Assembly: GCA_016125335.1 (NCBI GenBank)
Contig: WGLY01000011.1
Location: 1 to 64,000 of the forward strand
Reading direction: 5' to 3'
Source of the DNA: Frankiales bacterium
GTDB taxonomy: Bacteria > Actinomycetota > Actinomycetes > S36-B12 > CAIYMF01
Length of the DNA stretch: 64,000 nucleotides
A model generated the notes under the pieces. It worked only from the letters and a program-made list of their open reading frames with translations, made no database searches and had not been told where the DNA came from. Below are positions 36,630-51,910 of the stretch, one piece after another (position 1 is the first letter of the stretch; each line of letters begins with the position of its first letter). Both the position numbers and the translations under genes were made by a program.

Positions 36630-36657
36630 TCAAGCCCGCCTCCCGGAGGGCCGATGG
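36630..36657 (+). promoter_or_regulatory. Sigma-28-like promoter of the roadblock/GTPase operon
   Basis: TCAA (36630..36633) then 16 bases then GCCGATGG (36650..36657), 53 bases before the roadblock ATG. The same element precedes seven pilus transcription units in this window. It is similar to FliA/WhiG promoters (TAAA-N15-GCCGATAA and the actinobacterial variant beginning CTCA). Confidence 0.6.
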
Positions 36658-36710
36658 GACACCGTGGCGTTCGTTCCTGTCGCCACGTCCGCGACGCGTC
36701 GAGGTGCTCC

Positions 36711-37553
36711 ATGTCCGATCCTGTGTCCGGCCGCGCCGCTCGGCTCGACCGCGCCCTGCGCGACCTGCTCAGCCAGGCACCCGAGCTCGAAGCCGCGGCG
36801 GTGGTCTCCTTCGACGGCCTGGCGATGGCGTCCGCGCTGCCGCCGGGCATGGACGAGGACCGGGTCGCGGCCATGAGCGCGGCGCTGCTCTCGCTGGGCG
36901 AGAAGGCGGCGCAGGGCCTGGGCCGGGGCGACCTGTCGCAGGTCTACGTCGAGGGGGAGACCGGCACGGTGTTCCTGGTCTCCTGCGACGAGGAGGCCGT
37001 GCTCGTGGCGGTGGCCGCCGCCGGCGCCAAGGCCGGCCTCATGCTCTTCGAGGTGCGCCACGCCGCCGCCGCCATCGCCGACGTGCTGCGCACGGAGTCG
37101 GTCCCGGTGCCCGCGACGGTGGACGAGGCGGCCCTGGCCGAGGCGGAGGCGGCGTACGCCGCGCACAAGGCGGCGCAGGCGGCCCAGGCCGCCGCTGCGG
37201 CCGAGCTCGAGGTGCCGGCCGAGGCCGACGAGCCCGCCGAGCAGCCGCTGCTGACCTCGGCCGAGGCGGCGGCAGCCGAGGCGCTGCCCCCGGCGCCGGC
37301 CGTCGCCGTGGAGCCGGAGCAGCCCGCCGAGGCCGCACCCGCCGCCCCGGTCCCGCCCGTGCTGCTGCCCGCGGACTCCCCGACGTCCCTCGCGCGCGGC
37401 ACCGGCACCTTCTTCCCCGAGGCCGGCGCAGACGGCCCGGACTCCGGCGCGCCGATGGTGCCCGACACCGTGCCCGACGACCTGGCCGACCCGGCGCCGA
37501 GCCTCTCGCTCGCGCCGTGGGAGGCCCCGCCGTCCGACCGCAGCTGGTCCTGA
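36711..37553 (+). CDS. Roadblock/LC7 domain protein (MglB/CvnB-like)
   Basis: A 280-residue protein. Residues 1-125 form a roadblock domain: LDRALRDLLSQAPELEAAAVVSFDGLAMAS, a central helix (MSAALLSLGEKAAQGLG) and strands QVYVEGETGTVFLV and AVLVAVAAAGAKAGLML. Roadblock proteins of this type (MglB, CvnB) act as partners or GTPase-activating proteins for small Ras-like GTPases. The rest is a long Ala/Pro/Glu-rich tail that is probably disordered. A GTPase gene lies two genes downstream. The preceding 143-base gap carries the shared pilus promoter motif. Confidence 0.88.
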   Translation: MSDPVSGRAARLDRALRDLLSQAPELEAAAVVSFDGLAMASALPPGMDEDRVAAMSAALLSLGEKAAQGLGRGDLSQVYVEGETGTVFLVSCDEEAVLVAVAAAGAKAGLMLFEVRHAAAAIADVLRTESVPVPATVDEAALAEAEAAYAAHKAAQAAQAAAAAELEVPAEADEPAEQPLLTSAEAAAAEALPPAPAVAVEPEQPAEAAPAAPVPPVLLPADSPTSLARGTGTFFPEAGADGPDSGAPMVPDTVPDDLADPAPSLSLAPWEAPPSDRSWS

Positions 37554-37617
37554 CCGGCCCGCCCGACCCCGACCGAGCACGAACCCGAGCACCTGACCGC
37601 GAGAGGAGGCCCGCCCC

Positions 37618-38865
37618 GTGAACCTCGAGGGTTCGCTGGACGCCTTCGGGCTGCCCGACGTGTTCGCGCTGCTGGCCTCCACCGGCAAGTCCGGCGGCCT
37701 GCTGCTGCGCGCCACCGGGGCGTCGCCGCAGGTCGAAGGCGTGGTCTGGTTCCGCGAGGGGCGTGTCTCCGGAGCCAGCTCGGACCGTTCGCGGGCCTCC
37801 CTCGTGCGCCGCGTGGTGGGCTCCGGCGCCGTCGACGACGCCGCCCTGCGCCAGGCCGTGGCCCGGGCCGCCGGTGGCGGCATCGGCGTCGCGCGGGCGC
37901 TGCTCGAGGCCGGGGCGGTCGAGCCGGAGCTGCTGCGGCAGGCGGCCACCGACCAGACCGTGGACGCCGTCTTCGACCTCCTGCGCTGGCCCGCGGGGGA
38001 GTTCGGGTTCGACCAGGCCGCCGTGGACGTCGACGACGTCGGCGTGAGCCTCGACCACGCCCGGGTGCTGGCCGAGGCCCAGGCCCGGTCGGAGGCCTGG
38101 GCCCAGCTCGAGGCGCTGGTGCCCAGCCGCGACAGCGTGCTGGCCGTGCCCGTGGTGCTCCACCACGACCCCGAGGTCTCCCGCGACGAGTGGGCGCTGC
38201 TCGCGCTGGTGGACGGCCGTCGCCGGGTGCGCGACCTGGTCGAGCTGACCGGCGCCGGCCAGTTCGCGGTCACCACCACGCTCGCCCACCTGGTGCAGCG
38301 CGGCCTGCTGCACGTGCGCGACGCCTCGACCCCCGACCACGTGGGGGTCGTCGAGCGCCGCCTCGCGCTGCTCGCCCCGGTCGAGGGCGGCGAGGTCGGC
38401 GCGCACGCGCCCGCCCAGGCCGAGCCGGTCGTGCCGGCGCTGCCGGATCGCGAGCACCCCGTGCCTGCGCCCGCGGCGGCGACGCTGCCGCCCGGACCCG
38501 GCGCCCAGGGGATCACCGCCGCCGCGGCGCTGGCCGCCGCGCGGGCGGCCCAGGGCGTCTCCGCACCGGCCGGCGCGGGTGCGCTCGCGCGGCCCGCCGC
38601 CCGGCGCGAGGTCGTGCCGCCGCGGCCCGAGCCGTTCCTGCCGGGCCGCCGCCCGGAGCACCCGGAGCCCGGGGAACCGGGTCACGCAGCCCGTGCGGCC
38701 ACCGGCACGGGCGGGGCCGTGTCCGGCACCGCCGTGGAGGGGGCCACGGCCCGGGCGCTGAGCGAGCCGGTGGCCGAGGCGGTCCCGGAGGGTGTCATCG
38801 AGCGCGATCCCGGCGTCAACCGCAGTCTGTTGTTGCGCCTGATCGCCGGGGTCCGGGGGTTGTGA
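37618..38865 (+). CDS. DUF4388 domain protein
   Basis: A 415-residue protein. It begins with a DUF4388 (PATAN-like) domain: LEGSLDAFGLPDVFALLASTGKSGGLLL and a VVWFREGRVSGAS strand pair. A second helical part has a winged-helix look (LVDGRRRVRDLVELTGAGQFAVTTTLAHLVQRGLL). The C-terminal third is Pro/Ala-rich and ends in a basic segment LLLRLIAGVRGL. DUF4388 proteins occur next to small GTPases, roadblock proteins and pili in Thermus, Myxococcus and others. The GTG start follows GAGAGGAGG. Likely an adaptor between GTPase and pilus machine (inference). Confidence 0.8.
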   Translation: MNLEGSLDAFGLPDVFALLASTGKSGGLLLRATGASPQVEGVVWFREGRVSGASSDRSRASLVRRVVGSGAVDDAALRQAVARAAGGGIGVARALLEAGAVEPELLRQAATDQTVDAVFDLLRWPAGEFGFDQAAVDVDDVGVSLDHARVLAEAQARSEAWAQLEALVPSRDSVLAVPVVLHHDPEVSRDEWALLALVDGRRRVRDLVELTGAGQFAVTTTLAHLVQRGLLHVRDASTPDHVGVVERRLALLAPVEGGEVGAHAPAQAEPVVPALPDREHPVPAPAAATLPPGPGAQGITAAAALAAARAAQGVSAPAGAGALARPAARREVVPPRPEPFLPGRRPEHPEPGEPGHAARAATGTGGAVSGTAVEGATARALSEPVAEAVPEGVIERDPGVNRSLLLRLIAGVRGL

Positions 38866-38867
38866 CC

Positions 38868-39443
38868 ATGGCCGCACGCAAGTCCCGGCGTCAGGGCGGC
38901 CAGGCCGTCAAGATCGTCGTCACCGGCCCCTTCGCGGCCGGCAAGACGACGCTCATCCGGACGATCTCGGAGATCACCGTGCTCTCGACGGAGCGCGGCA
39001 TCACCGACGAGACGCGCAGCCGCAAGGCCGAGACCACGGTCGCGATGGACTTCGGCCGCATCACGATCGACCGCGACCTCGTGCTCTACCTGTTCGGCAC
39101 GCCCGGCCAGGAGCGGTTCGACTTCATGTGGGAGATCCTCGGCGAGGGGATGCTCGGCTACGTCCTGCTCCTCGACGCCGACCGCCCGGAGACCCACCCC
39201 GAGGCGCTGACGATCCTCGAGGCGTTCCGGCGCATGGCCCGGGTGCCGTTCGTGGTCGCGCTCAACCGCGCCGACGGGCTCGACACGAGGACGGAGAACG
39301 AGCTGCGCGACGCGCTGCTGCTCGACGACGCCGTGCCGGTCGTCCCCTGCGACGCCACCGACAAGGAGTCGGTCAAGACCGTGCTGCTGGCGCTGCTCTA
39401 CTCGGTCCTCGACGAGATCGAGCAGACCGCGGCGCACGCGTAG
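38868..39443 (+). CDS. Small Ras-like GTPase (MglA/CvnD-like)
   Basis: A 191-residue GTPase. G1 is GPFAAGKTT, a switch I threonine pair is in KAETTVAMDFG, G3 is YLFGTPGQERF (Gly replaces the usual first Asp, typical of the CvnD group), and G4 is NRAD. These features match actinobacterial conservon GTPases and, more distantly, MglA, which sets cell polarity and pilus activity in Myxococcus. The ATG at 38868 is 2 bases past the DUF4388 stop; a GTG at 38862 is an alternative. Together with the roadblock protein it forms a plausible GTPase-regulator pair. Confidence 0.88.
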   Translation: MAARKSRRQGGQAVKIVVTGPFAAGKTTLIRTISEITVLSTERGITDETRSRKAETTVAMDFGRITIDRDLVLYLFGTPGQERFDFMWEILGEGMLGYVLLLDADRPETHPEALTILEAFRRMARVPFVVALNRADGLDTRTENELRDALLLDDAVPVVPCDATDKESVKTVLLALLYSVLDEIEQTAAHA

Positions 39444-39449
39444 GCCGCC

Positions 39450-39887: not shown

Positions 39888-39943
39888 GGCCCGGTGGGGT
39901 CCCCGGCCGGCTGAGCCGGCGCGCCGGGAGGCCGCGACCCGGC

Positions 39944-39971
39944 TTCAGCCGGGCTCGCAGTGTGCCGAATG
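39944..39971 (+). promoter_or_regulatory. Sigma-28-like promoter of pilB
   Basis: TTCA (39944..39947), 16 bases, GCCGAATG (39964..39971), 66 bases before the pilB GTG. The TTCA lies in the loop of a 6-bp stem (CCCGGC-TTCA-GCCGGG), which together with GCCGGC-TGA-GCCGGC just upstream may end the GTPase operon. Confidence 0.5.
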
Positions 39972-40037
39972 GGTGAGGGTGAGGTCGCGCCTGCGCGCCC
40001 TCGTGACGGTCGACGTGACGGACCCGAGAGGACGATC

Positions 40038-41720
40038 GTGAAGCAGCTGGGCGACATCCTCCTCGAGGGCGGTCTGGTCACGCGCGACCAGCTCGAGGTG
40101 GCGATGTCCGAGCAGAACCGCCTGGGCCGCAGCCTGGGCCGGGTGCTCGTGGACCAGGGCGTCCTCACCGAGGCCCAGCTGGTCGCCTCGCTCGCGGCCC
40201 AGATCGGCATGCGCTTCGTCGACCTCAGCGACCTCCAGGTGGACGGGTCCGCGCTGGCCCGCGTGCCCGGGCACGTGGCGCGTCGGCACACGGCGATCCC
40301 GATCGGGTACGAGGACGGCAAGCTCGTCGTGGCCATGGCCGACCCGGCCAACGTGTTCGCCATCGACGACATCCGCACGGTGGCGGGCGCCGCCGCCGGC
40401 GCGCACATCGACGTCAAGCCGGTCGTGGCCACGCGCAACGACGTCGTCGCCGCGATCGACCGCTACTACCGGGCCGGCGACGAGCTCGACGACCTCACCA
40501 CCGAGCTCGACATGGGCGAGGAGGAGGAGGACCTCTCCAAGGTCAAGGAGATCACCGAGGACGCACCGATCGTCCGGTACGTGAACCTGCTCATCACGCA
40601 GGCCATCCAGGACCGCGCCTCGGACATCCACCTCGAGCCCACCGAGCAGGACCTCCGGGTGCGCTACCGCATCGACGGCGTGCTCCACGAGGTCATGCGC
40701 TCGCCCCGGGCGATCCAGTCCGGCGTCATCAGCCGGCTGAAGATCATGTCCGACATCAACATCGCCGAGCGCCGCATCCCGCAGGACGGCCGGCTCTCGG
40801 TGAACGCCAACGGCAAGAAGGTCGACCTGCGCGTGGCGACCCTCCCCACGGTGTGGGGCGAGAAGGTCGTCATGCGCATCCTGGACAACTCCACCGCGCG
40901 CATGGACCTCGAGGACCTCGGCTTCAGCCCGCACAACTTCGGCGTCTACGAGCAGTCGTACATCAAGCCGTACGGGATGATCCTGGTGACCGGGCCGACC
41001 GGCTCCGGCAAGTCCACGACGCTCTACGCCACGCTCAACGTGGTGAACAAGCCCGAGGTCAACATCATCACGGTGGAGGACCCGGTCGAGTACCGGTTGC
41101 CCGGCGTCAACCAGGTGCAGGTGAACAACAAGGCGGGGCTCAACTTCGCCGCGGCCCTGCGCTCGATCCTGCGGTCGGACCCCGACATCGTGCTCATCGG
41201 CGAGATCCGCGACCACGAGACCGCCCAGATCGCCATCGAGGCCTCGCTCACCGGTCACCTGGTGCTCTCGACCCTGCACACCAACGACGCCCCCAGCGCC
41301 ATCACCCGGCTCACCGAGATGGGCATCGAGCCGTTCCTCGTGGGGTCGGCCGTCGACTGCGTGCTCGCCCAGCGGCTCGCACGGCGGCTGTGCTCCAAGT
41401 GCAAGGAGCCGTACGAGCCCACCGAGGAGCAGCTCGAGAAGATCGGGTTCAACCCCCGTCCGGGCGACCCGGCGCCCACCTTCTACCGGCCGGTCGGGTG
41501 CTCCACGTGCGCCAAGACCGGCTACAAGGGCCGGCTGGCCCTGCACGAGGTCATGGCCATGGACGACGACATCGAGCGGCTGACGGTCGAGCGGGCCTCG
41601 GCCACCGCGATCGGGGCGGTCGCCATCGACCACGGCATGCGCGTGCTGCGCGAGGACGGCCTGCTCAAGGCCAGCCAGGGCATCACGTCCCTGGACGAGG
41701 TCTTCCGCGTCGTCGCGTGA
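40038..41720 (+). CDS. pilB: Type IV pilus assembly ATPase PilB
   Basis: A 560-residue hexameric motor that powers pilus extension. Residues 1-150 are an MshEN-type domain: two 24-residue motifs, 3-26 (QLGDILLEGG ... SEQ) and 32-55 (SLGRVLVDQG ... AAQ), with a 5-residue spacer, the layout known from c-di-GMP-binding MshEN domains, but the leading Arg is Gln/Ser. The ATPase core has Walker A GPTGSGKSTT, Walker B DIVLIGEIRD, His boxes around STLHTNDA and the zinc tetracysteine CSKC ... CSTC. GTG 40038 follows GAGAGGA; upstream in-frame codons are not family-like. Confidence 0.93.
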   Translation: MKQLGDILLEGGLVTRDQLEVAMSEQNRLGRSLGRVLVDQGVLTEAQLVASLAAQIGMRFVDLSDLQVDGSALARVPGHVARRHTAIPIGYEDGKLVVAMADPANVFAIDDIRTVAGAAAGAHIDVKPVVATRNDVVAAIDRYYRAGDELDDLTTELDMGEEEEDLSKVKEITEDAPIVRYVNLLITQAIQDRASDIHLEPTEQDLRVRYRIDGVLHEVMRSPRAIQSGVISRLKIMSDINIAERRIPQDGRLSVNANGKKVDLRVATLPTVWGEKVVMRILDNSTARMDLEDLGFSPHNFGVYEQSYIKPYGMILVTGPTGSGKSTTLYATLNVVNKPEVNIITVEDPVEYRLPGVNQVQVNNKAGLNFAAALRSILRSDPDIVLIGEIRDHETAQIAIEASLTGHLVLSTLHTNDAPSAITRLTEMGIEPFLVGSAVDCVLAQRLARRLCSKCKEPYEPTEEQLEKIGFNPRPGDPAPTFYRPVGCSTCAKTGYKGRLALHEVMAMDDDIERLTVERASATAIGAVAIDHGMRVLREDGLLKASQGITSLDEVFRVVA

Positions 41721-41747
41721 CCCGCTCACCCTGCGTGCTCGGAAGGC

Positions 41748-41775
41748 TCAAGCGGAGGTCTCCGCGAACCGATGC
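41748..41775 (+). promoter_or_regulatory. Sigma-28-like promoter of pilT-pilC
   Basis: TCAA (41748..41751), 16 bases, ACCGATGC (41768..41775), 48 bases before the preferred pilT start. Confidence 0.5.
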
Positions 41776-41823
41776 CACGAAGGACGCCCGAGGTGTGTCG
41801 GGCGCGGAGTCGTAGGAGTGCTC

Positions 41824-43497
41824 GTGGAGACCACGCCGTACACCGCGGTCCCGGCTGCACCGGGCTACCCCGCGCCCCCGGCAGAGCCCACCGAGTCGGT
41901 GCCGCTGACCGCGACCGGCGAGCCGGCCATCGTGTCCTTCGGCGGCCCCGCGCCGGCCGAGCCCGCGCCGTACTCGCCCGAGCCCCCCGCCGCGCCCTAC
42001 GAGCCCGCACCGTCCGCCGCGCCGGCCGAGCCGTACTCGCCGGTGCCCCCGGAGCAGCTCGCCCAGGCCTACGCCGAGCCCGCCTACGCCGAGCCCGCGT
42101 ACGCCGAGCCCGTCCCCGCGGAGCCCGCCTACGTCGCGCCGGCGTACGCCGCCCCCGAGGCCGTCGCCCCCGCCTACCCCGCGCCGGCGCCGGAGACGGC
42201 CGTGCCGGTCGACCTCCCGGCCCCGGCCACCGCCCCGGTGGCGGCCCCCGCGCCCGCGCCGGCGTACCCGGCGTCGGCCTACCCGGCCCCGGTGGCGCCG
42301 GCCGAGCCGGCCCCGGCCGAGCCCGCGCCCGCCGCGGTGCCGCACGACTCGCGCCCGCAGGCGTCGTCGGTGTCCGTCGGGCACGAGGCGCTGATCGGGC
42401 GGCAGAGCACCGAGCAGCAGGTGCGCGACGACGACTTCAGCCTCGCCGACGCGCTCAACCAGATGCTCGACCGCGGCGCCTCCGACCTGCACCTGACGTC
42501 CGCCGCCAAGCCCACGGTCCGGGTGAGCGGCTCGCTGGTGCCGCTCGAGGACTTCGAGGTGCTGACCCCGCCCGTGCTCCAGCGGGTCATCTACGCGATC
42601 CTCACCCAGGCGCAGCGGCTGAAGTTCGAGGAGCAGCTCGAGCTCGACTTCGCGTACTCGCTGCCCGGGCGGGCGCGCTTCCGCGTCAACATCTACCGGC
42701 AGCGCGACGCGCTCGGCGCCGCGTTCCGCATCATCCCGTTCGAGATCAAGTCCCTGGAGAGCCTCGGCATCCCGCCGGCGGTGGCGAACTTCGCGAACCT
42801 GCCCCGCGGCTTCGTGCTGGTCACCGGGCCGACCGGCTCGGGCAAGTCCACCACGCTGGCCTCGGTGATCGACCTCGCGAACCGCACCCGGCGCGACCAC
42901 ATCATGACCGTCGAGGACCCGATCGAGTTCCTCCACCGGCACAAGAGCTGCCTGGTCAACCAGCGCGAGGTGGGGGAGGACACCTGGTCGTTCTCCAACG
43001 CGCTCAAGCACGTGCTGCGCCAGGACCCCGACATCATCCTCGTCGGCGAGATGCGCGACCTCGAGACCATCTCGGTGGCCCTCACCGCGGCCGAGACCGG
43101 CCACCTCGTCTTCGCCACCCTGCACACGCAGGACGCCGCCCAGACGATCGACCGCATCATCGACGTGTTTCCGCCGCACCAGCAGACGCAGGTGCGGGCG
43201 CAGCTCGCGATGGCGCTGCAGGGCGTCGTGTGCCAGACGCTGGCCAAGTCGGCCGACGGGCACGGCCGCGTGGTCGCCACCGAGGTGCTCGTCGTCACGC
43301 CTGCGGTGCGCAACCTGATCCGCGAGGGCAAGACGCACCAGATCTACTCCGTCATGCAGGCAGGAGCCGCGCACGGCATGCACACCCTCGACCAGCACCT
43401 GGCCGAGCTCGTCCGCACCCGCCGGATCACCTACGAGGTCGGTCTGGAGAAGTGCCACCACATCGAGGACTTCAACCGGCTCTGCGGCCGGGCCTGA
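41824..43497 (+). CDS. pilT: Type IV pilus retraction ATPase PilT with long Pro-rich extension
   Basis: A 557-residue protein. Residues 1 to about 200 are low-complexity (Pro, Ala, Glu, Tyr) with AYAEP repeats; the PilT core starts near residue 202 (DDFSLADALNQMLDRGASDLHL). Core motifs: Walker A GPTGSGKSTT, ASP box TVEDPIEF, Walker B DIILVGEMRDLETI, HIS box ATLHTQDA. PilT drives pilus retraction and twitching. I prefer GTG 41824 since AGGAG (41814..41818) sits 5 bases upstream; GTG 41818 would overlap that site. pilC follows after 23 bases. Confidence 0.9.
   Translation: METTPYTAVPAAPGYPAPPAEPTESVPLTATGEPAIVSFGGPAPAEPAPYSPEPPAAPYEPAPSAAPAEPYSPVPPEQLAQAYAEPAYAEPAYAEPVPAEPAYVAPAYAAPEAVAPAYPAPAPETAVPVDLPAPATAPVAAPAPAPAYPASAYPAPVAPAEPAPAEPAPAAVPHDSRPQASSVSVGHEALIGRQSTEQQVRDDDFSLADALNQMLDRGASDLHLTSAAKPTVRVSGSLVPLEDFEVLTPPVLQRVIYAILTQAQRLKFEEQLELDFAYSLPGRARFRVNIYRQRDALGAAFRIIPFEIKSLESLGIPPAVANFANLPRGFVLVTGPTGSGKSTTLASVIDLANRTRRDHIMTVEDPIEFLHRHKSCLVNQREVGEDTWSFSNALKHVLRQDPDIILVGEMRDLETISVALTAAETGHLVFATLHTQDAAQTIDRIIDVFPPHQQTQVRAQLAMALQGVVCQTLAKSADGHGRVVATEVLVVTPAVRNLIREGKTHQIYSVMQAGAAHGMHTLDQHLAELVRTRRITYEVGLEKCHHIEDFNRLCGRA
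42067..42141. repeat. 15-bp tandem repeat in pilT
   Basis: Units of GCCTACGCCGAGCCC, repeated about five times with decay, encode AYAEP pentapeptides in the N-terminal extension of PilT. Confidence 0.75.
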
Positions 43498-43520
43498 GCG
43501 GTCGGGAGAGGACCAGGATC

Positions 43521-44747
43521 ATGGCAGCAACCGCCACCTACGAGTACGCCGTCCGGGACCGCTCGGGCTCCATCGTCACGGGCAAGATCGACGCCGACTC
43601 GCCGGCGGCCGTGGCCTCCAAGCTCAAGAGCATGGGCTACGCCCCGGTCAAGATCTCCGTGGTCAAGAACAGCGGCCTCCAGATGGAGCTCAAGCTCCCC
43701 AAGCTGGGCGCCAAGGTGTCGCTCAAGGAGCTCGCGGTCTTCTCGCGGCAGTTCTCGACGATGATCAACTCCGGTCTGTCGATGCTGCGCGCCCTGTCGA
43801 TCCTCGAGGAGCAGCAGCCCAACAAGACCTTCGCCGAGATCCTCACCGAGATCCGCCTCGAAGTGGAGTCCGGCTCGGCGCTGTCGATCTCGATGGGCCA
43901 CCACCCCGAGGTCTTCCCGCCCCTCATGGTGAACATGATCCGGGCCGGCGAGGTGGGCGGCTTCCTCGACAAGGTGCTCAGCCAGATCGCCGACAACTAC
44001 GAGGCCGAGGTCCGCCTGCGCGGCAAGGTGAAGTCCGCGATGACCTACCCGGTCGTCGTCCTCATCATGGCGATCCTCATGTCGATCGGCATGCTGCTGT
44101 TCATCGTGCCGACCTTCGCGGGCCTGTTCACCTCGCTCGGCGGCGAGCTGCCGGCGCCCACGCAGATGCTGGTGAACCTCTCCAACTTCCTCAAGGTCGC
44201 GATCATCCCGCTGGTCATCGTCGCGATCGTCGGCTCGGTCGTCTGGCGGCGGGTCAAGCACACCGAGCGCGTGCGCGAGGTGGTCGACCCGATCAAGCTC
44301 AAGGTGCCGATCTTCGGCCAGCTGTTCCGCAAGATCGCGCTGGCGCGGTTCTGCCGCAACCTCGGCACCATGCTCGCTTCGGGCGTGCCGATCCTCCAGA
44401 GCCTCGACATCGTGGCCGACACCTCGGGCAACGTGGTGGTCGCGCACGCGGTGCGCGACATCCAGGAGAGCGTCCGCAGCGGTGAGAGCCTCACCGAGCC
44501 GCTGAGCAAGCACGACATCTTCCCGGCCATGGTGGTGCAGATGCTGGCGGTCGGCGAGGACACCGGCGCGCTGGACACGATGCTGCACAAGATCAGCGAC
44601 TTCTACGACGCCGAGGTGGAGTCGACGACGGAGCAGCTGACGGCGCTCATCGAACCGCTGATGATCGCCGTGCTCGGCGGCCTGGTCGGGTCGATGATCA
44701 TCGCCCTCTACATGCCGATCTTCAAGATCTTCGACCTCATCAAGTAG
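43521..44747 (+). CDS. pilC: Type IV pilus inner-membrane platform protein PilC
   Basis: A 408-residue GspF-family protein. N-terminal cap (YEYAVRDRSGSIVTGKIDADSPAAVASKLKSMG), then two GspF domains, each with the pattern FSRQFSTMINSGLSMLRAL and FCRNLGTMLASGVPILQSLDIV, and the G-E-x-G motif (RAGEVGGFL and VGEDTGALD). Three membrane helices fit the family. It transmits force from PilB/PilT to pilin insertion. It sits directly after pilT and is followed by a strong hairpin. Confidence 0.94.
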   Translation: MAATATYEYAVRDRSGSIVTGKIDADSPAAVASKLKSMGYAPVKISVVKNSGLQMELKLPKLGAKVSLKELAVFSRQFSTMINSGLSMLRALSILEEQQPNKTFAEILTEIRLEVESGSALSISMGHHPEVFPPLMVNMIRAGEVGGFLDKVLSQIADNYEAEVRLRGKVKSAMTYPVVVLIMAILMSIGMLLFIVPTFAGLFTSLGGELPAPTQMLVNLSNFLKVAIIPLVIVAIVGSVVWRRVKHTERVREVVDPIKLKVPIFGQLFRKIALARFCRNLGTMLASGVPILQSLDIVADTSGNVVVAHAVRDIQESVRSGESLTEPLSKHDIFPAMVVQMLAVGEDTGALDTMLHKISDFYDAEVESTTEQLTALIEPLMIAVLGGLVGSMIIALYMPIFKIFDLIK

Positions 44748-44799: not shown

Positions 44800-44901
44800 C
44801 TGCGCCCCCCGGGGGAGGTCGTTCGTCGGGCCGGCCCCCGCCGAACGGACGAGATCGGCCCCCAGCGGGCACCGAACGGGTGACCTGCGGGCGTGGCGGT
44901 C

Positions 44902-44929
44902 TCAATGGAGGAGCACCGGGGCCCGACGT
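44902..44929 (+). promoter_or_regulatory. Sigma-28-like promoter of pilA1
   Basis: TCAA (44902..44905), 16 bases, CCCGACGT (44922..44929). It is the weakest match of the set and lies 162 bases from the start codon, much farther than the others (37-66). Confidence 0.35.
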
Positions 44930-45091: not shown

Positions 45092-45574
45092 ATGATCGCT
45101 CGCCTCAGCACACAGACCGACGAGAGGGAAGGGGGCTTCACGCTCATCGAGCTCCTCGTCGTCATGATCATCATCGGCATCCTCGCCGCCATCGCGATCC
45201 CGGTGTTCCTCAACCAGCGCAAGAACGGCTGGAACGCTGCCGCGAAGACCGACCTGGCCAACTTCGGCCTGGCCGTCGAGTCCTCCGGTGTCGACCACGG
45301 CGGCAGCTTCACGGCCGTCCTGCTCACCACGCCGGGCAACGTCCTGGCCTCCGGGCAGACCCTCTACGCCGCGAAGCTGGCGTCCGGCTTCGAGTTCAGC
45401 GGCACCACGGACGTGACCGTCGTCCTGGGCGCGGCACCGTCGCCCACGGACTTCTGCATCATCGCCAACAACTCCAACGTGAGCGACGCGTGGTGGACCT
45501 ACAGCCGCAAGCACGGCGGCCTCATGCCACTGCCGAAGGCCACACCGGTGGCGGCCGCCGCCCAGTGCGCGTGA
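45092..45574 (+). CDS. pilA: Type IVa major pilin PilA, copy 1
   Basis: A 160-residue prepilin: a 15-residue leader ending in Gly, then FTLIELLVVMIIIGILAAIAIP with Glu at +5, the class III signal cut and methylated by PilD. The globular part has a C-terminal Cys pair (DFCIIANN ... QCA) that can close the D-loop. It is about half identical to the next two pilins, sharing FLNQRKNGWN and NVSDAWW. An AGAAGG ribosome site lies before ATG 45092. It is flanked by its own promoter-like element and a very strong hairpin. Confidence 0.93.
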   Translation: MIARLSTQTDEREGGFTLIELLVVMIIIGILAAIAIPVFLNQRKNGWNAAAKTDLANFGLAVESSGVDHGGSFTAVLLTTPGNVLASGQTLYAAKLASGFEFSGTTDVTVVLGAAPSPTDFCIIANNSNVSDAWWTYSRKHGGLMPLPKATPVAAAAQCA

Positions 45575-45590
45575 GCCGATCGCTGGACGG

Positions 45591-45632
45591 GCGGGACGGC
45601 CCGGGACCCCTGGTGGTCCCGGGCCGTCCCGC
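45591..45632 (+). terminator. Strong terminator hairpin after pilA1
   Basis: A perfect 18-bp stem: 45591..45608 (GCGGGACGGCCCGGGACC) with 45615..45632, 6-base loop. It begins 16 bases past the pilA1 stop. Confidence 0.75.
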
Positions 45633-45700
45633 GTCCCGGTCCCCTCGACGCCGGCGCTACGCCGTCCGGCGTACTCCCGGCAGGTCGTGGCAGCCGACCG

Positions 45701-45729
45701 TCAAGACCGGGTGGCGCCGGAGCCGATCA
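45701..45729 (+). promoter_or_regulatory. Sigma-28-like promoter of pilA2
   Basis: TCAA (45701..45704), 17 bases, GCCGATCA (45722..45729), 58 bases before the pilA2 ATG. Confidence 0.5.
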
Positions 45730-45787
45730 CACGGTGTCGGACCGGCCGTCCAGGGCCGCTCCAGCACCAGCACGGAAGGGGACGGGC

Positions 45788-46267
45788 ATGCTCGCTCGTA
45801 TCCGCACCACCCGCGACGAGGGGGAGCAGGGCTTCACCCTGATCGAGCTCCTCGTCGTGATGATCATCATCGGCATCCTCGCCGCGATCGCGATCCCGAC
45901 GTTCCTCAACCAGCGCAAGAACGGCTGGAACTCGGCGGCCAAGACCGACGTGTCGAACTTCGGCCTCGCGGTCGAGTCCTCCGCCGTCGACCAGGGCGGC
46001 GACTTCACCGCGGTCCTGCTCGGCGCCCAGGGCGACAAGCTCGCGGCCAACGGCGTGCTCGACGGCACCAAGGTGATCGCCGGCTTCGAGTTCACCGGCT
46101 CGCAGAACGTCGACGTCTACCTCGGCGCCGCCCCGGCCGGCTCGGACTTCTGCCTGGTCGGGAACAACACCAACGTCTCCGACGCGTGGTGGGTCTACAG
46201 CAAGGGCAAGGGCGGCCTGCAGCCGACCTCGTACGCCGACCTGGCGACCGCCGAGAGCAAGTGCTGA
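45788..46267 (+). CDS. pilA: Type IVa major pilin PilA, copy 2
   Basis: A 159-residue prepilin with a 15-residue leader (MLARIRTTRDEGEQG), F at +1, Glu at +5 and C-terminal Cys pair (DFCLVGN ... ESKC). It is nearly identical to copy 3 over residues 15-115 and differs mainly in the leader and around residues 118-130, so the two arose by recent duplication. ATG 45788 follows GGAAGGGG; an upstream in-frame extension from 45734 would spoil the prepilin leader. It is separated from both neighbours by terminator hairpins. Confidence 0.93.
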   Translation: MLARIRTTRDEGEQGFTLIELLVVMIIIGILAAIAIPTFLNQRKNGWNSAAKTDVSNFGLAVESSAVDQGGDFTAVLLGAQGDKLAANGVLDGTKVIAGFEFTGSQNVDVYLGAAPAGSDFCLVGNNTNVSDAWWVYSKGKGGLQPTSYADLATAESKC

Positions 46268-46287
46268 CCGGCACCGCACCGCACCGA

Positions 46288-46316
46288 GAGGACCCGGGAC
46301 TCGATCCCGGGTCCTC
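46288..46316 (+). terminator. Strong terminator hairpin after pilA2
   Basis: Perfect 12-bp stem GAGGACCCGGGA / TCCCGGGTCCTC with a 5-base loop, 20 bases past the pilA2 stop. Confidence 0.75.
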
Positions 46317-46396
46317 GTGCGTGGGCCTGCGTCGCGCGCCCGGTCACGGGGACGTCACGACCGACCGGTGGAGGCGAAATCAACCTCTCGGAGGAC

Positions 46397-46423
46397 TCAA
46401 GGTCCCCGGGGCAGCGCCGATGC
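46397..46423 (+). promoter_or_regulatory. Sigma-28-like promoter of pilA3
   Basis: TCAA (46397..46400), 15 bases, GCCGATGC (46416..46423), 59 bases before the pilA3 ATG. This is the best match in the window to the classical TAAA-N15-GCCGATAA layout. Confidence 0.6.
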
Positions 46424-46482
46424 CTTGATCACGGTGCGGCCGACGCGGGTCGGTCGAAAACCTCATCCGGAAGGACAAGACC

Positions 46483-46962
46483 ATGCTCTCTCGCGTCCGC
46501 ACGGCGATCGAGAAGAAGGACGAGGGCTTCACCCTCATCGAGCTCCTCGTCGTCATGATCATCATCGGCATCCTCGCCGCGATCGCGATCCCGACGTTCC
46601 TCAACCAGCGCAAGAACGGCTGGAACTCGGCCGCCAAGACCGACGTGTCGAACTTCGGCCTCGCGGTCGAGTCCTCGGCCGTCGACCAGGGCGGCGACTT
46701 CACCAAGGTCCTGCTCGGCGCCCAGGGCGACAAGCTCTCGGCCAGCGGCGTGCTCGACGGCACCAAGGTGATCGCCGGCTTCGAGTTCACCGGCTCGCAG
46801 AACGTCGACGTCTACCAGGGCGCCGCCGCGGGCAGCAACACCTTCTGCCTGATCGCGAACAACACCAACGTCTCCGACGCCTGGTGGGTCTACAGCAAGG
46901 CCAAGGGCGGCCTCCAGCCGACTTCGTACGCCGACCTCGCGACCGCCGAGGGCAAGTGCTGA
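46483..46962 (+). CDS. pilA: Type IVa major pilin PilA, copy 3
   Basis: A 159-residue prepilin, leader MLSRVRTAIEKKDEG (15 residues), then the same FTLIELLVVM helix and a body almost identical to copy 2, ending in a Cys pair (TFCLIANN ... GKC). A GGAAGGA ribosome site lies 9 bases before ATG 46483. Own promoter-like element and own hairpin suggest it can be expressed independently of copies 1 and 2. Which copy forms the main fibre cannot be told from sequence. Confidence 0.93.
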   Translation: MLSRVRTAIEKKDEGFTLIELLVVMIIIGILAAIAIPTFLNQRKNGWNSAAKTDVSNFGLAVESSAVDQGGDFTKVLLGAQGDKLSASGVLDGTKVIAGFEFTGSQNVDVYQGAAAGSNTFCLIANNTNVSDAWWVYSKAKGGLQPTSYADLATAEGKC

Positions 46963-46982
46963 TTGCGCACAACGCGCACCTC

Positions 46983-47025
46983 GTGCGGGGTGGTGCCCGG
47001 GAGCTTCCCGGGTGCCACCCCGCAC
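46983..47025 (+). terminator. Terminator hairpin after pilA3
   Basis: 46983..47002 (GTGCGGGGTGGTGCCCGGGA) pairs with 47006..47025 at 18 of 20 positions, 3-base loop, 20 bases past the pilA3 stop. Confidence 0.7.
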
Positions 47026-47096
47026 CGCGTGACGGGGCGGACCGCACGGTCGTGGGCCCGGGTCACCCACTCGCTCCATCGGGGCGCACCGCTGGC

Positions 47097-47124
47097 TCAA
47101 GCCGCGCGCACGCCCGTCCGATGA
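47097..47124 (+). promoter_or_regulatory. Sigma-28-like promoter of the minor pilin operon
   Basis: TCAA (47097..47100), 16 bases, TCCGATGA (47117..47124), 37 bases before ATG 47162. Confidence 0.5.
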
Positions 47125-47161
47125 CCGCAAGAGCCGATCGAGATCCTGGGAGGGGCGCCGC

Positions 47162-48475
47162 ATGCGCATCGACTCGCTGGCCACGCGCGTCGCACGGTGC
47201 CGCGACGACGACGGCGTGACCCTCATCGAGATCATGGTCGCGTTCTCGCTGCTGCTGGTGCTCTCCGCCGCCGTGGGCGCCGGACTGCTCGCCGTGCAGA
47301 AGTCGGCCATGACGTCCAAGGAGCGCAGCGCCGCCGCGAACCTCGCCACACGCGAGATCGAGGTGGTGCGCAACTGGTTCCACTCCAGCGACACCGCGCC
47401 CCTGGACGTGATGAACACCGGCGACACCGTCGACGGGGCGCCGCTGCCCGGCCAGACCGGGGCGCTCGTGGTCGACAACGTGCCCTACACCGTCAAGCGG
47501 CAGGTGGCCTGGCTGGTCACCGGCAACGGCGTCAGCGCCTGCGACGGCGGCAGCATCGTGACGTACCCGAGCATCAGCGTCCACGTCGAGGTGACCTGGC
47601 CGAACATGGGAAGTGTCCCGCCGGTGACCTCCGACACCGTGCTCACCCCGCCCAAGAGCGTGCTCAACTCGAGCAACGGCTACCTCGCCATCAAGGTGGT
47701 CAACCGCGACGGCAACGCGAACGCCGGCCGCACGGTGACCGCCACCGGCCCCGCGGGCACCTTCTCCGACACCACAGGCCCCGACGGGTGCGCGACGTTC
47801 GTGCTGAGCAAGGCAGGCACCTACACCGTGTCGCTCACCGAGGGCTCGAGCGGCTACATCGCCTTCAACGGCTCGACCAGCCAGGCCGTCGCCGTCAGCA
47901 TCGGCAGCCTCGTGGTGCGCAGCTTCACCTACGACCTCGGCGTCTCGTTCCGCGCGACCCTGACCCCGCCGGCCGGGTTCTCGCTCCCGGCCACGCTGCC
48001 CGCCGTGGCGTTCGGCAACGCCGGCATCCTGCCCAGCGGCGTCTCGACGTTCGCTCCTGACGCGACCGGCACGGCACAGGTCGGGCCGCTCTGGCCGTTC
48101 GCCTCCGGCTACTCGGTCTGGGCCGGCAGCTGCACGGACAGCGACCCCGGCCTGACCGGCACGCGTCCGGCGCCCCTGAAGCCGGCCAAGGGCACCACCA
48201 CCAACACCACGGCAGCACTCCAGGCCGTCGCCATCACGACCACCTACCTGGGGGCCCCCGTGGACGTCCCGGTCACCGCCACCTACAGCGGGTCGGGCAG
48301 CTGCCCGGCCGGCGACGGCACGCTCACGCTGGGCACAAGCGCTGCGGGCGTGCTCAACACCTCGCTCCCGTACGGGACGTGGACGCTCACCGCCACCATC
48401 GGCAGCGGCCCGGTGACCGGCATCGTGCAGCTCGACGCCTCCACCGGCGGCGTCGTCACCCTGGACGGTGCGTGA
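47162..48475 (+). CDS. Large minor prepilin with adhesin-like domains (PilV-like)
   Basis: A 437-residue protein. An 18-residue leader ends in Gly and is followed by VTLIEIMVAFSLLLVLSAAV, the prepilin helix with Glu at +5 (Val instead of Phe at +1). After about 140 pilin-like residues come repeated beta-sandwich-like stretches: LAIKVVNRDGNANAGRTVTATGPAGT...DTTGPDGCATFVL recalls carboxypeptidase-regulatory/Ig-like modules of adhesins. The size is about three times a normal pilin. It is probably a minor pilin at or near the fibre tip with a binding role (inference). The next gene overlaps its stop by one base. Confidence 0.8.
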   Translation: MRIDSLATRVARCRDDDGVTLIEIMVAFSLLLVLSAAVGAGLLAVQKSAMTSKERSAAANLATREIEVVRNWFHSSDTAPLDVMNTGDTVDGAPLPGQTGALVVDNVPYTVKRQVAWLVTGNGVSACDGGSIVTYPSISVHVEVTWPNMGSVPPVTSDTVLTPPKSVLNSSNGYLAIKVVNRDGNANAGRTVTATGPAGTFSDTTGPDGCATFVLSKAGTYTVSLTEGSSGYIAFNGSTSQAVAVSIGSLVVRSFTYDLGVSFRATLTPPAGFSLPATLPAVAFGNAGILPSGVSTFAPDATGTAQVGPLWPFASGYSVWAGSCTDSDPGLTGTRPAPLKPAKGTTTNTTAALQAVAITTTYLGAPVDVPVTATYSGSGSCPAGDGTLTLGTSAAGVLNTSLPYGTWTLTATIGSGPVTGIVQLDASTGGVVTLDGA

Positions 48476-49206
48476 TGCTGACGCGCACCCGTCGCCGCCT
48501 CGAGGCGGCCCGCCGCGGCGACGCCGGCGTCACCATGGCAGAGCTGTCCGTCACTGCGCTGGTCCTCGGCATGCTGGTGACGGTGCTCATCACCATGGTC
48601 ACCGCCGGCCAGCGCATCTCGCTCGGCGTGCACGAGCGGCTCGACCAGACCAACCAGGCGACCATCGCGATGGAGCGGGTCACGCGCAACCTGCGCACGG
48701 CGGTGCTCCAGAGCCAGCTGACCACCACTTGCACGCTCTCGGTCTGCACCGACGCGGCGTTCCTCGTGGGATCGCCCACCTCCGTGCAGTTCTACGCCGA
48801 CGTGAACAACCCCAAGAACAGCGTGGGCCCGAGCCGCGTGACCTACCAGGTGGTCAACGGCGTGCTCAGCGAGACGATCCAGAAGCCGGACTCGCCGACG
48901 CCGGACGCCAGCGGCTACCACTACTGCACGCCCAGCGCGACGTGCATCGTGCGCTCCACCGTGCTGGCCACCGGGGTCCAGACGACGAGCCCGGTCTTCA
49001 GCTACTACACCGCCCTGAACCCCAACACCGCGATGGCGATGGGATCGGGCGGGGTGCTCACCTCCGGCCAGCTCAAGCTCGTGGACAGCATCGACGTCCA
49101 GCTCACGGTGCTCGACGCCGGGGGCGCCAACGTCGCCGGCGCCACGCTGCTCCAGCGCGTCGCCCTGCCCAACGCCGACAGCGTCGTCCGCACGGATGGG
49201 ACCTGA
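48475..49206 (+). CDS. Minor prepilin (PilW-like)
   Basis: A 243-residue protein. Leader of 18 residues (ending RRGDAG), then VTMAELSVTALVLGMLVTVLI with Glu at +5. The body resembles PilW/GspJ-type minor pilins only in general layout (QTNQATIAMERVTRNLRTAV, a long N-terminal helix, then strands), with Cys residues in TTTCTLSVCTD and YHYCTPSATC. ATG 48475 shares one base with the stop of the previous gene. It is part of the three-gene minor pilin operon that ends in pilD. Confidence 0.82.
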   Translation: MLTRTRRRLEAARRGDAGVTMAELSVTALVLGMLVTVLITMVTAGQRISLGVHERLDQTNQATIAMERVTRNLRTAVLQSQLTTTCTLSVCTDAAFLVGSPTSVQFYADVNNPKNSVGPSRVTYQVVNGVLSETIQKPDSPTPDASGYHYCTPSATCIVRSTVLATGVQTTSPVFSYYTALNPNTAMAMGSGGVLTSGQLKLVDSIDVQLTVLDAGGANVAGATLLQRVALPNADSVVRTDGT

Positions 49207-49207
49207 G

Positions 49208-51037
49208 ATGAACCGAGTGCTCCGCAGGCTCCGGCGCTCCGACGCCGGTGTCGCGCTCGTCATGGTGATGGGCTGGATGATGGTGGTGGCCATGCTCGTG
49301 GCCGCCGCTACCGCCTACGCGATCCAGACCAACGTCGTGGCCCACAAGGGCCAGGACTGGGGCAGCGCGCTGTCCGCTGCCCAGGCCGGCATCGAGGACT
49401 ACGTCGCCCGGCTCAACCGCAACGACAACTACGGCCGCATCTGGGACTGCACCAACCCGGCGCTCAAGGGCCCCAACCAGCCGGGCAACACCTGCGGCTG
49501 GACCTCCGCCACCCCCACCGGATGGGTGCCCGTGGTGGCGACCGAGCCCAACGGCCCCGCGTTCCACTACGACGTCGACGCGAGCAACCTGGACAAGAAC
49601 GGCACGATCAGCGTGAGCTCGACCGGGCGCTCGGGCAACGAGACGCGCACCGTCGAGGCGGCCATCGGCCGCGGCGGCTCCACCGACTTCCTCTACTACA
49701 CCGACCTCGAGCACGCGGACCCGGCCAACCAGTTCGTCTACCCCAGCGGCACGAACAAGTACTTCTGCGGCTCCAACGGCGCCCAGAAGGACATCTACTG
49801 GTACAGCCCGCCCATCGGCGGCTACGACCGGGCGAACTCCGGTTGCGTGGAGATCGGCTTCGCCAGCGGTGACGTGCTCGACGGCAAGGTGCACTTCAAC
49901 GACCTGCCCAAGATGAACGCGGCGGGCGCGACGTTTCAGGCCTCCTACGAGACCTCCGCCCCGTCGTGCGCCACCGCCACGCCGCCGAGCTACGCCGGCT
50001 GCGTGCGCAGCGGCGGCCCCACGCCGATCTTCGGCTCGGTGTCGAACCCGATCCCGCCGAAGTACGTCGACCCGCTCTACCTCGACGACACGTCCGCCAA
50101 GTTCGCCACCTACCCCGGCTGCCACTACTACGGTGCTACCCGGATCAAGTTCAACGCCTCGCCGGCGGGGACGATGACGGTCTGGAGCAAGGACAGCGCC
50201 GGCAAGTCGGTGGGCGCCAACTGCGGGACGTTCACCGCGGCCAACGGCTACATGCAGTCCAACCTGCCCGTGCCCAACGACATGGTGATCTACGACAGCG
50301 CCGGCAGCGCCGCGCACCGGTGCCTGTCCGGCGAGATCGGCGACGGCCTGCCCCTGGGCACGTACGCGGGCAGCGACACCACGTCCTACACCTACGACCA
50401 GAACATGCTCCGGCCGAGCCAGTTCTGCGGTGTCGGGAACCTCTACATCGAGGGCAACGTGAAGGGCCGCGTGACGCTGGCGGCGGAGAACTCGATCACC
50501 GTCACGGGCGACCTCGTGCTCTCGAACGGGATCAACGGCACGGACCTGGTCGGCCTCGTCGCGGGCAACTCGGTCGAGGTGTACCACCCGTACGTCGACA
50601 CCTGGGTCAGCACCACCGTGACGACGGGCTCCGGGAAGAAGCAGACCACCACCACCACGTGGGACTGGAAGGGCTCCCCCTCCGAGGTGTCCGGCTGGCC
50701 GCACCGCTACACCGACCCGTCGACCGGCACGGTCAACCCCACCAAGGGGATCCAGATCGACGCCTCGATCCAGACCCTCCAGCACAGCTTCTGGGTGCAG
50801 GAGTACAACAAGGGCAGCGGCTCCGGGACGCTCATGGTGCTCGGGTCGATCGCCCAGCGCTGGCGCGGCATCGTCGGCCAGGGCTCGGCCGGGTACATCA
50901 AGCTGTACAAGTACGACTCCCGCCTGAAGTACTCCTCGCCGCCCTACTTCCCGCAGTGGACCAACGCCAAGTGGGGCCCGCGACACACCGGTGAGCTCAC
51001 GCCGGCGTACGACCCGTCCGGCAACTACCTAGGCTGA
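49208..51037 (+). CDS. Very large minor prepilin lacking Glu+5 (PilX/GspK-like)
   Basis: A 609-residue protein. A 14-residue basic leader ends in Gly, followed by VALVMVMGWMMVVAMLVAAA: a pilin-type membrane helix in which position +5 is Met, not Glu. Loss of Glu+5 is the mark of tip subunits such as GspK. The ectodomain of about 550 residues is rich in Gly, Ser, Thr and Tyr, with several Cys pairs, a stretch NLYIEGNVKGRVTLAAENSITVTGDLVL that looks like a beta-helix or DUF-type repeat, and many aromatic residues. Function likely tip or adhesin. pilD follows after 6 bases. Confidence 0.78.
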   Translation: MNRVLRRLRRSDAGVALVMVMGWMMVVAMLVAAATAYAIQTNVVAHKGQDWGSALSAAQAGIEDYVARLNRNDNYGRIWDCTNPALKGPNQPGNTCGWTSATPTGWVPVVATEPNGPAFHYDVDASNLDKNGTISVSSTGRSGNETRTVEAAIGRGGSTDFLYYTDLEHADPANQFVYPSGTNKYFCGSNGAQKDIYWYSPPIGGYDRANSGCVEIGFASGDVLDGKVHFNDLPKMNAAGATFQASYETSAPSCATATPPSYAGCVRSGGPTPIFGSVSNPIPPKYVDPLYLDDTSAKFATYPGCHYYGATRIKFNASPAGTMTVWSKDSAGKSVGANCGTFTAANGYMQSNLPVPNDMVIYDSAGSAAHRCLSGEIGDGLPLGTYAGSDTTSYTYDQNMLRPSQFCGVGNLYIEGNVKGRVTLAAENSITVTGDLVLSNGINGTDLVGLVAGNSVEVYHPYVDTWVSTTVTTGSGKKQTTTTTWDWKGSPSEVSGWPHRYTDPSTGTVNPTKGIQIDASIQTLQHSFWVQEYNKGSGSGTLMVLGSIAQRWRGIVGQGSAGYIKLYKYDSRLKYSSPPYFPQWTNAKWGPRHTGELTPAYDPSGNYLG

Positions 51038-51043
51038 CCCCTC

Positions 51044-51823
51044 GTGGCCTTCCTCGTCGTCGCGGCGGGGGTGCTCGGCCTGCTCATCGGCTCGTTCCTC
51101 AACGTGGTGATCCACCGCGTGCCGAGGGGCGAGTCGGTGGTGCGGCCGCGCTCCCGCTGCCCCCGGTGCGGCACCGAGCTCGGTGCGCGCGACAACGTCC
51201 CCGTGGTCTCGTGGCTGGTGCTGCGCGGGCGCTGCCGCACCTGCGGCGAGCCGATCTCCGCGCGCTACCCGCTGGTCGAGCTCGGCACGGGCCTGCTGTT
51301 CGCCCTCACCGCCTGGTGGGCCGGCTGGTCGTGGGAGCTGCCGGCCTACCTCTACCTCGCCGGCATCGCCGTCGCCCTGGCCGCCATCGACCTCGACGTC
51401 CGACGCCTCCCCGACGCCATCGTGCTCCCGTCCTACGTCGTGACGTTCGCGCTGCTGCTTCTCCCTGCCGTCGTGGAGGGCAGGTGGGACGACCTGCTGC
51501 ACGCGGTGCTCACCGGCGCGGGGCTGTTCGCCTTCTACTTCCTGCTGGCCTTCATCTACCCGGCCGGCATGGGGTTCGGCGACGTGAAGCTCGCCGGCGT
51601 GCTCGGCATGTACCTCGGATGGGTCAACTGGCCGCTGGCCGTCATCGCGACGTTCTTCGCGTTCCTCATCGGCTCGGTCGTGGGGGTGGTGGTCATGGTC
51701 CGCAGCCGCAGCGGGCGCAAGACCAAGGTGCCCTTCGGCCCGTTCATGCTGCTCGGGACCTACCTGGCGCTGCTGTGGGGCCAGGACGTCATCGACTGGT
51801 ACACCTCGCTCGCCGGTCTGTGA
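51044..51823 (+). CDS. pilD: Prepilin leader peptidase / N-methyltransferase PilD
   Basis: A 259-residue polytopic enzyme that cuts prepilins after Gly and methylates the new N-terminus. N-terminal GSFLNVVIHRVPRGES and the zinc-binding pairs CPRCGTEL and CRTCGEPIS belong to the methylase region; catalytic aspartates are in AAIDLDVRRLPD and GFGDVKLAGVLG. Eight or so membrane helices. The GTG start is 6 bases past the large minor pilin, so it is expressed with its substrates. Confidence 0.94.
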   Translation: MAFLVVAAGVLGLLIGSFLNVVIHRVPRGESVVRPRSRCPRCGTELGARDNVPVVSWLVLRGRCRTCGEPISARYPLVELGTGLLFALTAWWAGWSWELPAYLYLAGIAVALAAIDLDVRRLPDAIVLPSYVVTFALLLLPAVVEGRWDDLLHAVLTGAGLFAFYFLLAFIYPAGMGFGDVKLAGVLGMYLGWVNWPLAVIATFFAFLIGSVVGVVVMVRSRSGRKTKVPFGPFMLLGTYLALLWGQDVIDWYTSLAGL

Positions 51824-51882
51824 CCCCAGGTGCCCGTCCCGGCGGGCTCACAGGTTCCCTCTCGTTCGTCCGCTCGTGACGC

Positions 51883-51910
51883 TCAAGCCCGGCTCACCAT
51901 CCGCCGAAAG
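51883..51910 (+). promoter_or_regulatory. Sigma-28-like promoter of pilM-N-O-P
   Basis: TCAA (51883..51886), 16 bases, GCCGAAAG (51903..51910), 50 bases before the preferred pilM start. Just upstream (about 51828-51855) an imperfect inverted repeat (GTGCCCG ... CGGGCTCAC) may end the pilD transcript. Confidence 0.55.

Follow-up and report, generated by a model that had tools for sequence, protein, structure and literature searches.

How a Frankiales bacterium (assembly GCA_016125335.1; 3.93 Mb, 41 contigs) brings its type IV pilus genes under common control is the question raised by contig WGLY01000011.1, positions 1 to 64,000 of which are the stretch of DNA analysed here (the window). A cluster of pilus genes in the window is preceded by an operon for a roadblock protein, a DUF4388 protein and a small Ras-like GTPase. 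A preliminary description, made from the sequence alone, had proposed that eight of these transcription units share a promoter element of the sigma-28 (FliA/WhiG) class, with TCAAG and CCGAT boxes set 15 to 17 bases apart. After examining the sites, their distribution in this and related genomes, and the candidate regulators, we consider it highly probable that the element is the WhiG promoter of a regulon for pili and cyclic di-GMP (c-di-GMP) turnover that is likely gated by the anti-sigma factor RsiG.

All eight coordinates were read. The sites are listed below with their scores against a matrix built from six of them, namely the five exact matches and the pilM site.

36629..36655, + strand: putative WhiG-type promoter of the roadblock-DUF4388-GTPase operon, CTCAAG-N16-CCGAT, score 20.5, 56 bases before ATG 36711
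39943..39969, + strand: variant site before pilB, CTTCAG-N16-CCGAA, score 8.1
41747..41773, + strand: putative WhiG-type promoter before pilT, CTCAAG-N16-CCGAT, score 19.9, 45 bases to GTG 41818
44901..44927, + strand: proposed pilA1 site, unsupported, CTCAAT-N16-CCGAC, score 10.4, 165 bases from start
45700..45727, + strand: putative WhiG-type promoter before pilA2, GTCAAG-N17-CCGAT, score 16.8, 61 bases to ATG 45788
46396..46421, + strand: putative WhiG-type promoter before pilA3, CTCAAG-N15-CCGAT, score 20.0, 62 bases to ATG 46483
47096..47122, + strand: putative WhiG-type promoter before the minor pilin operon, CTCAAG-N16-CCGAT, score 19.9, 40 bases to ATG 47162
51882..51908, + strand: putative WhiG-type promoter before pilM, CTCAAG-N16-CCGAA, score 17.9, 53 bases to GTG 51961

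Exact TCAAG-N15/16/17-CCGAT was found at five of the eight sites (roadblock, 36630; pilT, 41748; pilA2, 45701; pilA3, 46397; minor pilin, 47097). The pilM site at 51883 is a single base off, TCAAG-N16-CCGAA, and the pilB site at 39944 reads as the variant that had been claimed for it. We favour this pilB site because the variant recurs before pilB in other genomes, where, among 25 regions upstream of the gene, CTWCAG-N16-CCGA was the top-scoring site in nine (a count for which the variant has no control of its own). The proposed pilA1 site is left unsupported. The near-constant distance of the other seven from the start codon also stands, with a measured range of 40-69 bases in place of the 37-66 first given. 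A matrix scan of the whole window at a score of at least 14 returned eight places, the six matrix sites, all upstream of genes, and two intragenic ones. No other promoter region of the window had such a site. The element in the window is real and goes beyond chance.

To follow the element into other genomes, we took 40 loci from a PilC scan and scored the 200 bases upstream of called starts, with genes called by an in-house codon model that had the window as its training sequence. A score of at least 14 was reached before 69 of 151 target genes vs 9 of 316 others (Fisher p 5e-30 for loci outside training, a value that ignores relatedness). By target the counts were 9/9 for roadblock, 16/19 for pilM, 15/36 for pilT, 18/50 for pilA, 7/25 for pilB and 4/12 for the minor pilin gene; L053 and L056 had no scorable target gene, and the pilT rows include paralogs and fragments. 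Other pilus genes gave 0/137 and the remaining genes 9/179, and at least one of these nine (L049) is an unnamed gene within a pilus cluster. Thresholds of 10, 12, 14, 15 and 16 were tried, and 14 was preferred for its near-zero controls, with 1 shuffled and 2 opposite-strand matches in the 151 target regions; at a score of 10 the counts were 91/151 for targets, 31/316 for other genes and 14/316 for shuffled sequence. The spacer was 16 in 65 of the 69 sites, and the median distance to the start was 55 bases. In the 65 N16 sites of other genomes the -35 box read C54/65, T65, C63, A65, A64, G64 (CTCAAG) and the -10 box G50/65, C56, C65, G65, A65, then T39 or A20; these letter counts lean towards the window, since the sites were chosen by a window-built matrix. 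The orthologous upstream regions conserve the element proposed for the pilus and GTPase units.

Across the source genome, TCAAGN{15,17}CCGAT occurred 30 times vs 4 for a reversed-pattern control, and CTCAAGN{15,17}CCGAT 14 times vs 2; summed over 17 genomes of the family, the latter pattern gave 184 vs 54. Five of the 30 exact matches lie inside the window and 25 outside. Ten of these 25 are non-coding and stand 3-83 bases before a same-strand start, compared with a random-placement expectation of 2.24% for 0-100 bases before a start (p ~8e-11), a background that is approximate as it was drawn from the window and ten stretches picked around matches. One further match, located 33 bases ahead of an rpmG-like gene, was not counted, since its TCAAG resembles a tRNA T-loop (judged by eye, without a tRNA search); counting it would give 11/25. 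Each of the other 14 either falls within or overlaps a gene or is followed by no called start within 0-100 bases. Behind the ten matches are genes for two GGDEF-EAL proteins, an HD_5 protein followed by another HD_5 protein, a second PilT, a LuxR-type (GerE) protein and a DUF2510 protein, together with four genes without a Pfam match over cut-off that, by eye, encode two secreted-looking proteins, a zinc-ribbon-like protein and a small membrane protein. A genome-wide scan for positional and functional bias, suggested in the preliminary description, therefore came out in its favour on both counts, with 10/25 matches before starts and with a second PilT and c-di-GMP enzymes among the unlinked targets. 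The source genome has 14 GGDEF matches; in the upstream regions of 13 of these genes, four (L088, L089, L092 and L096) had a site of score at least 14 located 30-62 bases before the start and nine had none, the remaining gene (L097/L190) being left out for too little upstream sequence.

Some of these out-of-window loci have features of their own. The second pilT-like gene is unlinked (L036:6264-7460, contig C3), and its element stops 3 bases short of the called ATG and 9 short of a GTG; because of the latter distance a leaderless GTG start is possible, and the targets L040 and L042 likewise start 9 bases past CCGAT. On the same contig, L038:4296-7569 encodes two similar secreted-looking proteins, one of them behind a WhiG-type site, and a downstream signal-peptidase-like protein (names by eye). 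A protein similar to this pair in the family genome G008 (L146) has a site 49 bases upstream of its gene.

We next asked which sigma factor might read the element. The source genome has one FliA/WhiG-family sigma gene over cut-off, at C16:128389 (TIGR02479, 283.9 bits; cut-off 189.6), the kind of gene that the preliminary description had named as a check. Its product is highly similar over 249 residues to its best Protein Data Bank match, 6pfj_A (7e-115), and it also matches 6pfv_A; we take these chains to be Streptomyces venezuelae/Streptomyces WhiG. A xerC-like gene precedes the sigma gene, and beyond one intervening minus-strand gene come rpsB- and tsf-like genes (names by eye). Two further matches to the sigma profile fell below cut-off (120 and 111 bits) and were set aside; by eye they look like a SigB/F-type and a principal sigma factor. 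FlhA (PF00771), the sole flagellar gene searched, had no match in the source genome, and a flagellar regulon was rejected on that result. Of the 51 genomes compared, 13 had an FlhA match, and in some relatives flagella may therefore depend on this sigma factor too. Within the family, G007 and G014, which belong to the same genus, are the sole genomes with FlhA, and on the contig that carries it each of them also has another FliA/WhiG-family match (207.6 and 179.4 bits).

The sigma factor was over cut-off in 17/17 family genomes. Scorable targets and a sigma match of at least 250 bits occur together in 24 genomes, and an element scoring at least 14 was present in 21 of these (two more genomes in this sigma group have no scorable target). 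The frequency was 2/5 for matches of 189.6-250 bits and 2/4 for those below cut-off.

RsiG, the candidate anti-sigma factor, is encoded at two loci of the source genome (PF22802, contigs C28 and C26). The C28 protein has both E-x3-S-x2-R-x3-Q/H-x3-D motifs in exact form (ETRVSYWRRIIQARLD and EEELSDYRRELHRRID); in the C26 protein the two motifs read EADLSFLRRMLHGRIA and EAAVSEVRREVQAVMD, the second of which is exact. The C26 protein matched 6pfj_T (labelled AmfC protein, which we take to be Streptomyces RsiG) at 3e-30, and the C28 protein matched 7lq4_D (labelled RsiG) at 2.5e-7 and 6pfj_T at 5e-6. RsiG was found in 16/17 family genomes, and both types could be read in 11/17. The genomes of the 40 PilC loci, five of which appear to be family genomes met again (identical places), had at least two separate RsiG places in 22 cases, one in 10 and none in 8. 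Forty rsiG stretches were examined; the motif reader found none in four (L171, L172, L173 and L183), leaving 36 scored genes, 35 of them different. In a tree of these 36 rows, type A (22) and type B (14), named beforehand by their first motif, were split by one branch with support 100/99. The very long branch of this tree is L175 (G009:C7), a third RsiG-like protein in its genome that is very divergent and has a single clear motif. After rsiG-B in the source genome (L044:1195-3201, C26) comes an opposite-strand gene whose product resembles, by eye, the DUF4388 protein of the roadblock operon. A second RsiG copy is given for Acidothermus only, among 134 genomes, in PMC8325347. The paper listings of our literature search, mainly beyond subscription papers, gave no account of two RsiG types in one lineage.

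WhiG-type sites also precede many rsiG-A genes. In the 150-320 bases before motif 1, type A genes reached a score of at least 11 in 15/22 and at least 14 in 10/22, compared with 3/14 and 1/14 for type B; the two windows are not equivalent, since motif 1 of type B is nearer the start, and several type A rows are close relatives. Controls, run at a score of 14 alone so that the counts at 11 carry none, gave 0/22 (A) and 0/14 (B) on the reverse strand and 0/22 and 1/14 in shuffled sequence. Eight type A genes have both a called start and a site; in seven of them the site stands 27-56 bases ahead of the start, and in L184 159 bases ahead.

Together, these results are consistent with a switch modelled on work in Streptomyces and Rubrobacter, by analogy with which WhiG binding, RsiG gating and the direction of the c-di-GMP effect are proposed. 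The promoter would consist of a -35 box CTCAAG, 15 bases and a -10 box GCCGAT/A, read by WhiG, a sigma factor of the FliA/WhiG, sigma-28 class. One WhiG, encoded elsewhere in the genome, would transcribe the roadblock-DUF4388-GTPase operon, pilB, pilT-pilC, at least two of the three pilin genes, the minor pilin operon and pilM-O, as well as unlinked genes for c-di-GMP turnover and the second pilT. At high c-di-GMP, one or both RsiGs would bind c-di-GMP via their motifs and hold WhiG; as c-di-GMP falls, WhiG would be released and pili made, and the c-di-GMP enzymes of the regulon would feed back on the signal. A Streptomyces GGDEF-EAL protein is reported, in PMC13232838, to bind WhiG and keep RsiG off, and for that reason we speculate that the GGDEF-EAL proteins of the regulon might act directly on WhiG. 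More tentatively, and with the balance somewhat against it, one WhiG may be held by two anciently diverged twin-motif RsiGs, A and B, perhaps answering different c-di-GMP levels, with WhiG driving the type A brake in most relatives as negative feedback and the pilus paired with its own roadblock-GTPase module. A broad actinobacterial lineage, in most of which no FlhA was detected, would then have a two-brake c-di-GMP switch of surface motility or attachment, maybe older than its use for sporulation in Streptomyces.

Several observations weigh against a WhiG regulon gated by RsiG. The 40 loci are not independent, five of them apparently belonging to the genus of the window itself, and window sites served to train the matrix. 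In the source genome the looser CTCAAG-N16-CCGA was barely above control (23 vs 16 genome-wide); weak sites are therefore not callable from the pattern alone, and this pattern was left out of regulon calls. The pilA1 candidate at 44902 (TCAAT-N16-CCGAC), with its score of 10.4 at 165 bases from the start codon, was indistinguishable from chance and was not accepted. In the family, G014 was not enriched for CTCAAGN{15,17}CCGAT (6 vs 7), and in a sample of 30 family sites only 9, two of which belong to the source genome, had a called start 0-100 bases downstream, while 6 were intragenic and the rest had a farther or no called start, several being without any called gene. Co-occurrence is also imperfect. 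L051, L061 and L085, three of the 24 genomes with a sigma match of at least 250 bits, had no element scoring at least 14; and 4/5 genomes with no sigma match keep the element, which counters a simple reading unless these drafts, in which gaps are possible, miss whiG. A predicted lack of WhiG at eight element-less loci mostly failed, as only L059 was without a sigma match, and two of the eight, L055 and L058, proved to have a site before a pilin gene. Among the eight genomes without an RsiG match, L075-L079 had no element in the scanned targets, yet L073, L080 and L082 had one. Finally, in the source genome the first motif of the C26 RsiG has lost one Asp (D to A), and neither of the two rsiG genes is preceded by a site.

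A rival reading is that the sites are WhiG promoters but that, in the source genome, the level of WhiG or another anti-sigma factor controls them rather than RsiG and c-di-GMP, as may be the case in lineages that have the sigma factor and the sites without RsiG. Actinotalea, Sanguibacter and Cellulomonas have the element with sub-cut-off RsiG matches or none, and Actinoplanes has WhiG without RsiG according to PMC8325347. We regard this as unlikely in view of the two RsiG genes with a c-di-GMP motif in the source genome, the presence of RsiG in nearly all family genomes and the sites before most rsiG-A genes. That the element is instead the operator of a pilus transcription factor is very improbable in view of its two boxes, the nearly fixed spacer, the median distance of 55 bases to starts, the resemblance of its -10 box to the consensus GCCGATAA quoted in PMC8325347, and the presence of a WhiG gene. 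Hardly any weight can be given to a motif picked by eye from GC-rich intergenic DNA by chance. Two of the eight sites are indeed weak and the looser pattern adds little, but the genome-wide excess, the out-of-window positional bias and the conservation in non-training loci contradict it, and it was rejected by the genome-wide and cross-genome controls. The sigma-28-type reading of the preliminary description is supported by the WhiG-family gene, by both biases and by cross-genome conservation.

A WhiG-dependent pilus regulon has precedents. The preliminary description took the use of such promoters for a type IV pilus regulon with its own Ras-like switch to be new; sigma-28-type control of type IV pili is not new, having been published for Rubrobacter with mapped start sites in PMC8325347, where such control is cited for the pili of Actinoplanes as well. 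The Rubrobacter (RsiG)2-(c-di-GMP)2-WhiG switch shares with the source genome a WhiG-class sigma factor, a GCCGAT-type -10 box, RsiG, and promoters before type IV pilus operons and genes for diguanylate cyclases and phosphodiesterases. It differs in that Rubrobacter RsiG has one motif and dimerises whereas the source genome has two twin-motif RsiGs, and in its -35 search consensus, TAAA (PMC8325347), which shares only the two A with CTCAAG if CAAG is set against it. A further difference is the roadblock-DUF4388-GTPase operon, a probable target in the source genome. In Actinoplanes missouriensis, the type IV pili of zoospores are likewise under WhiG-like sigma-28-class control; these zoospores are flagellated and the genus is without RsiG (PMC8325347), whereas the source genome has no FlhA match. 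The Streptomyces RsiG-(c-di-GMP)2-WhiG switch is alike in that 6pfj chains, which we take to be the Streptomyces complex, are the closest matches of WhiG and of the C26 RsiG, but its output is sporulation, in contrast to the pili and c-di-GMP enzymes, and the second RsiG type, of the source genome.

The genes of the locus are as follows; pilB and pilT are named as in the preliminary description.

36711..37553, + strand: Roadblock/LC7 protein (MglB-like), Pfam PF03259 4.7e-17
37618..38865, + strand: DUF4388 protein, Pfam PF14332 4.7e-20
38862..39443, + strand: small Ras-like GTPase (MglA/CvnD-like), Pfam PF03029 1.1e-21 and PF00071 3.8e-6
40038..41720, + strand: pilB (extension ATPase), 54-92% identity matches in pilus loci of other genomes
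41818..43497, + strand: pilT (retraction ATPase), gene call and synteny
43521-44747, + strand: pilC, after pilT, gene call and synteny
45092..45574, + strand: pilA1 (pilin), open reading frame, pilin-type N terminus GFTLIELLVVM by eye
45788..46267, + strand: pilA2, gene call
46483..46962, + strand: pilA3, gene call
47162..51823, + strand: minor pilin operon (47162, 48472, 49208) with pilD, PF07963 on 47162, synteny
51044-51823, + strand: pilD, prepilin peptidase-like, named by eye without a family search
51961..55129, + strand: pilM, pilN, pilO and gene 54500-55129, open reading frames and synteny, names from the preliminary description and this analysis

In the tandem pilin trio (45092-46962) an upstream gap precedes each gene, and strong sites were found only for pilA2 and pilA3. 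The roadblock operon is flanked by an aroE-like gene upstream and by 39450/pilB downstream. It resembles MglA/MglB modules and conservons in combining a roadblock protein and a small Ras-like GTPase in one operon. Neither a CvnA histidine kinase nor CvnC was found beside them, and the middle protein matches PF14332 DUF4388 only, a domain that we take to be PATAN. Conservons also include a histidine kinase and CvnC, unlike this operon, which has DUF4388 between and pilB following, and some MglA-family genes lie near PATAN proteins (both from PMC4316618). The literature search described above found no report of a roadblock operon as a WhiG target.

The core RsiG-WhiG pilus logic is already published, and the present analysis extends the Rubrobacter/Streptomyces switch. 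It adds a twin-motif RsiG lineage, a CTCAAG -35 box (set against the Rubrobacter consensus only), the roadblock-DUF4388-GTPase operon as a constant target in all nine relatives scored for it, and two diverged RsiG types together, with WhiG-type sites before rsiG-A in other loci, not in the source genome. The promoter matrix can be used to find such regulons, and a second RsiG type is indicated. If the proposed switch is correct, the type IV pili of actinobacteria that are known mostly through metagenome assemblies would be tied to c-di-GMP via WhiG, the Rubrobacter result would extend to twin-motif RsiG lineages, and a pre-sporulation role of WhiG and RsiG would become testable.

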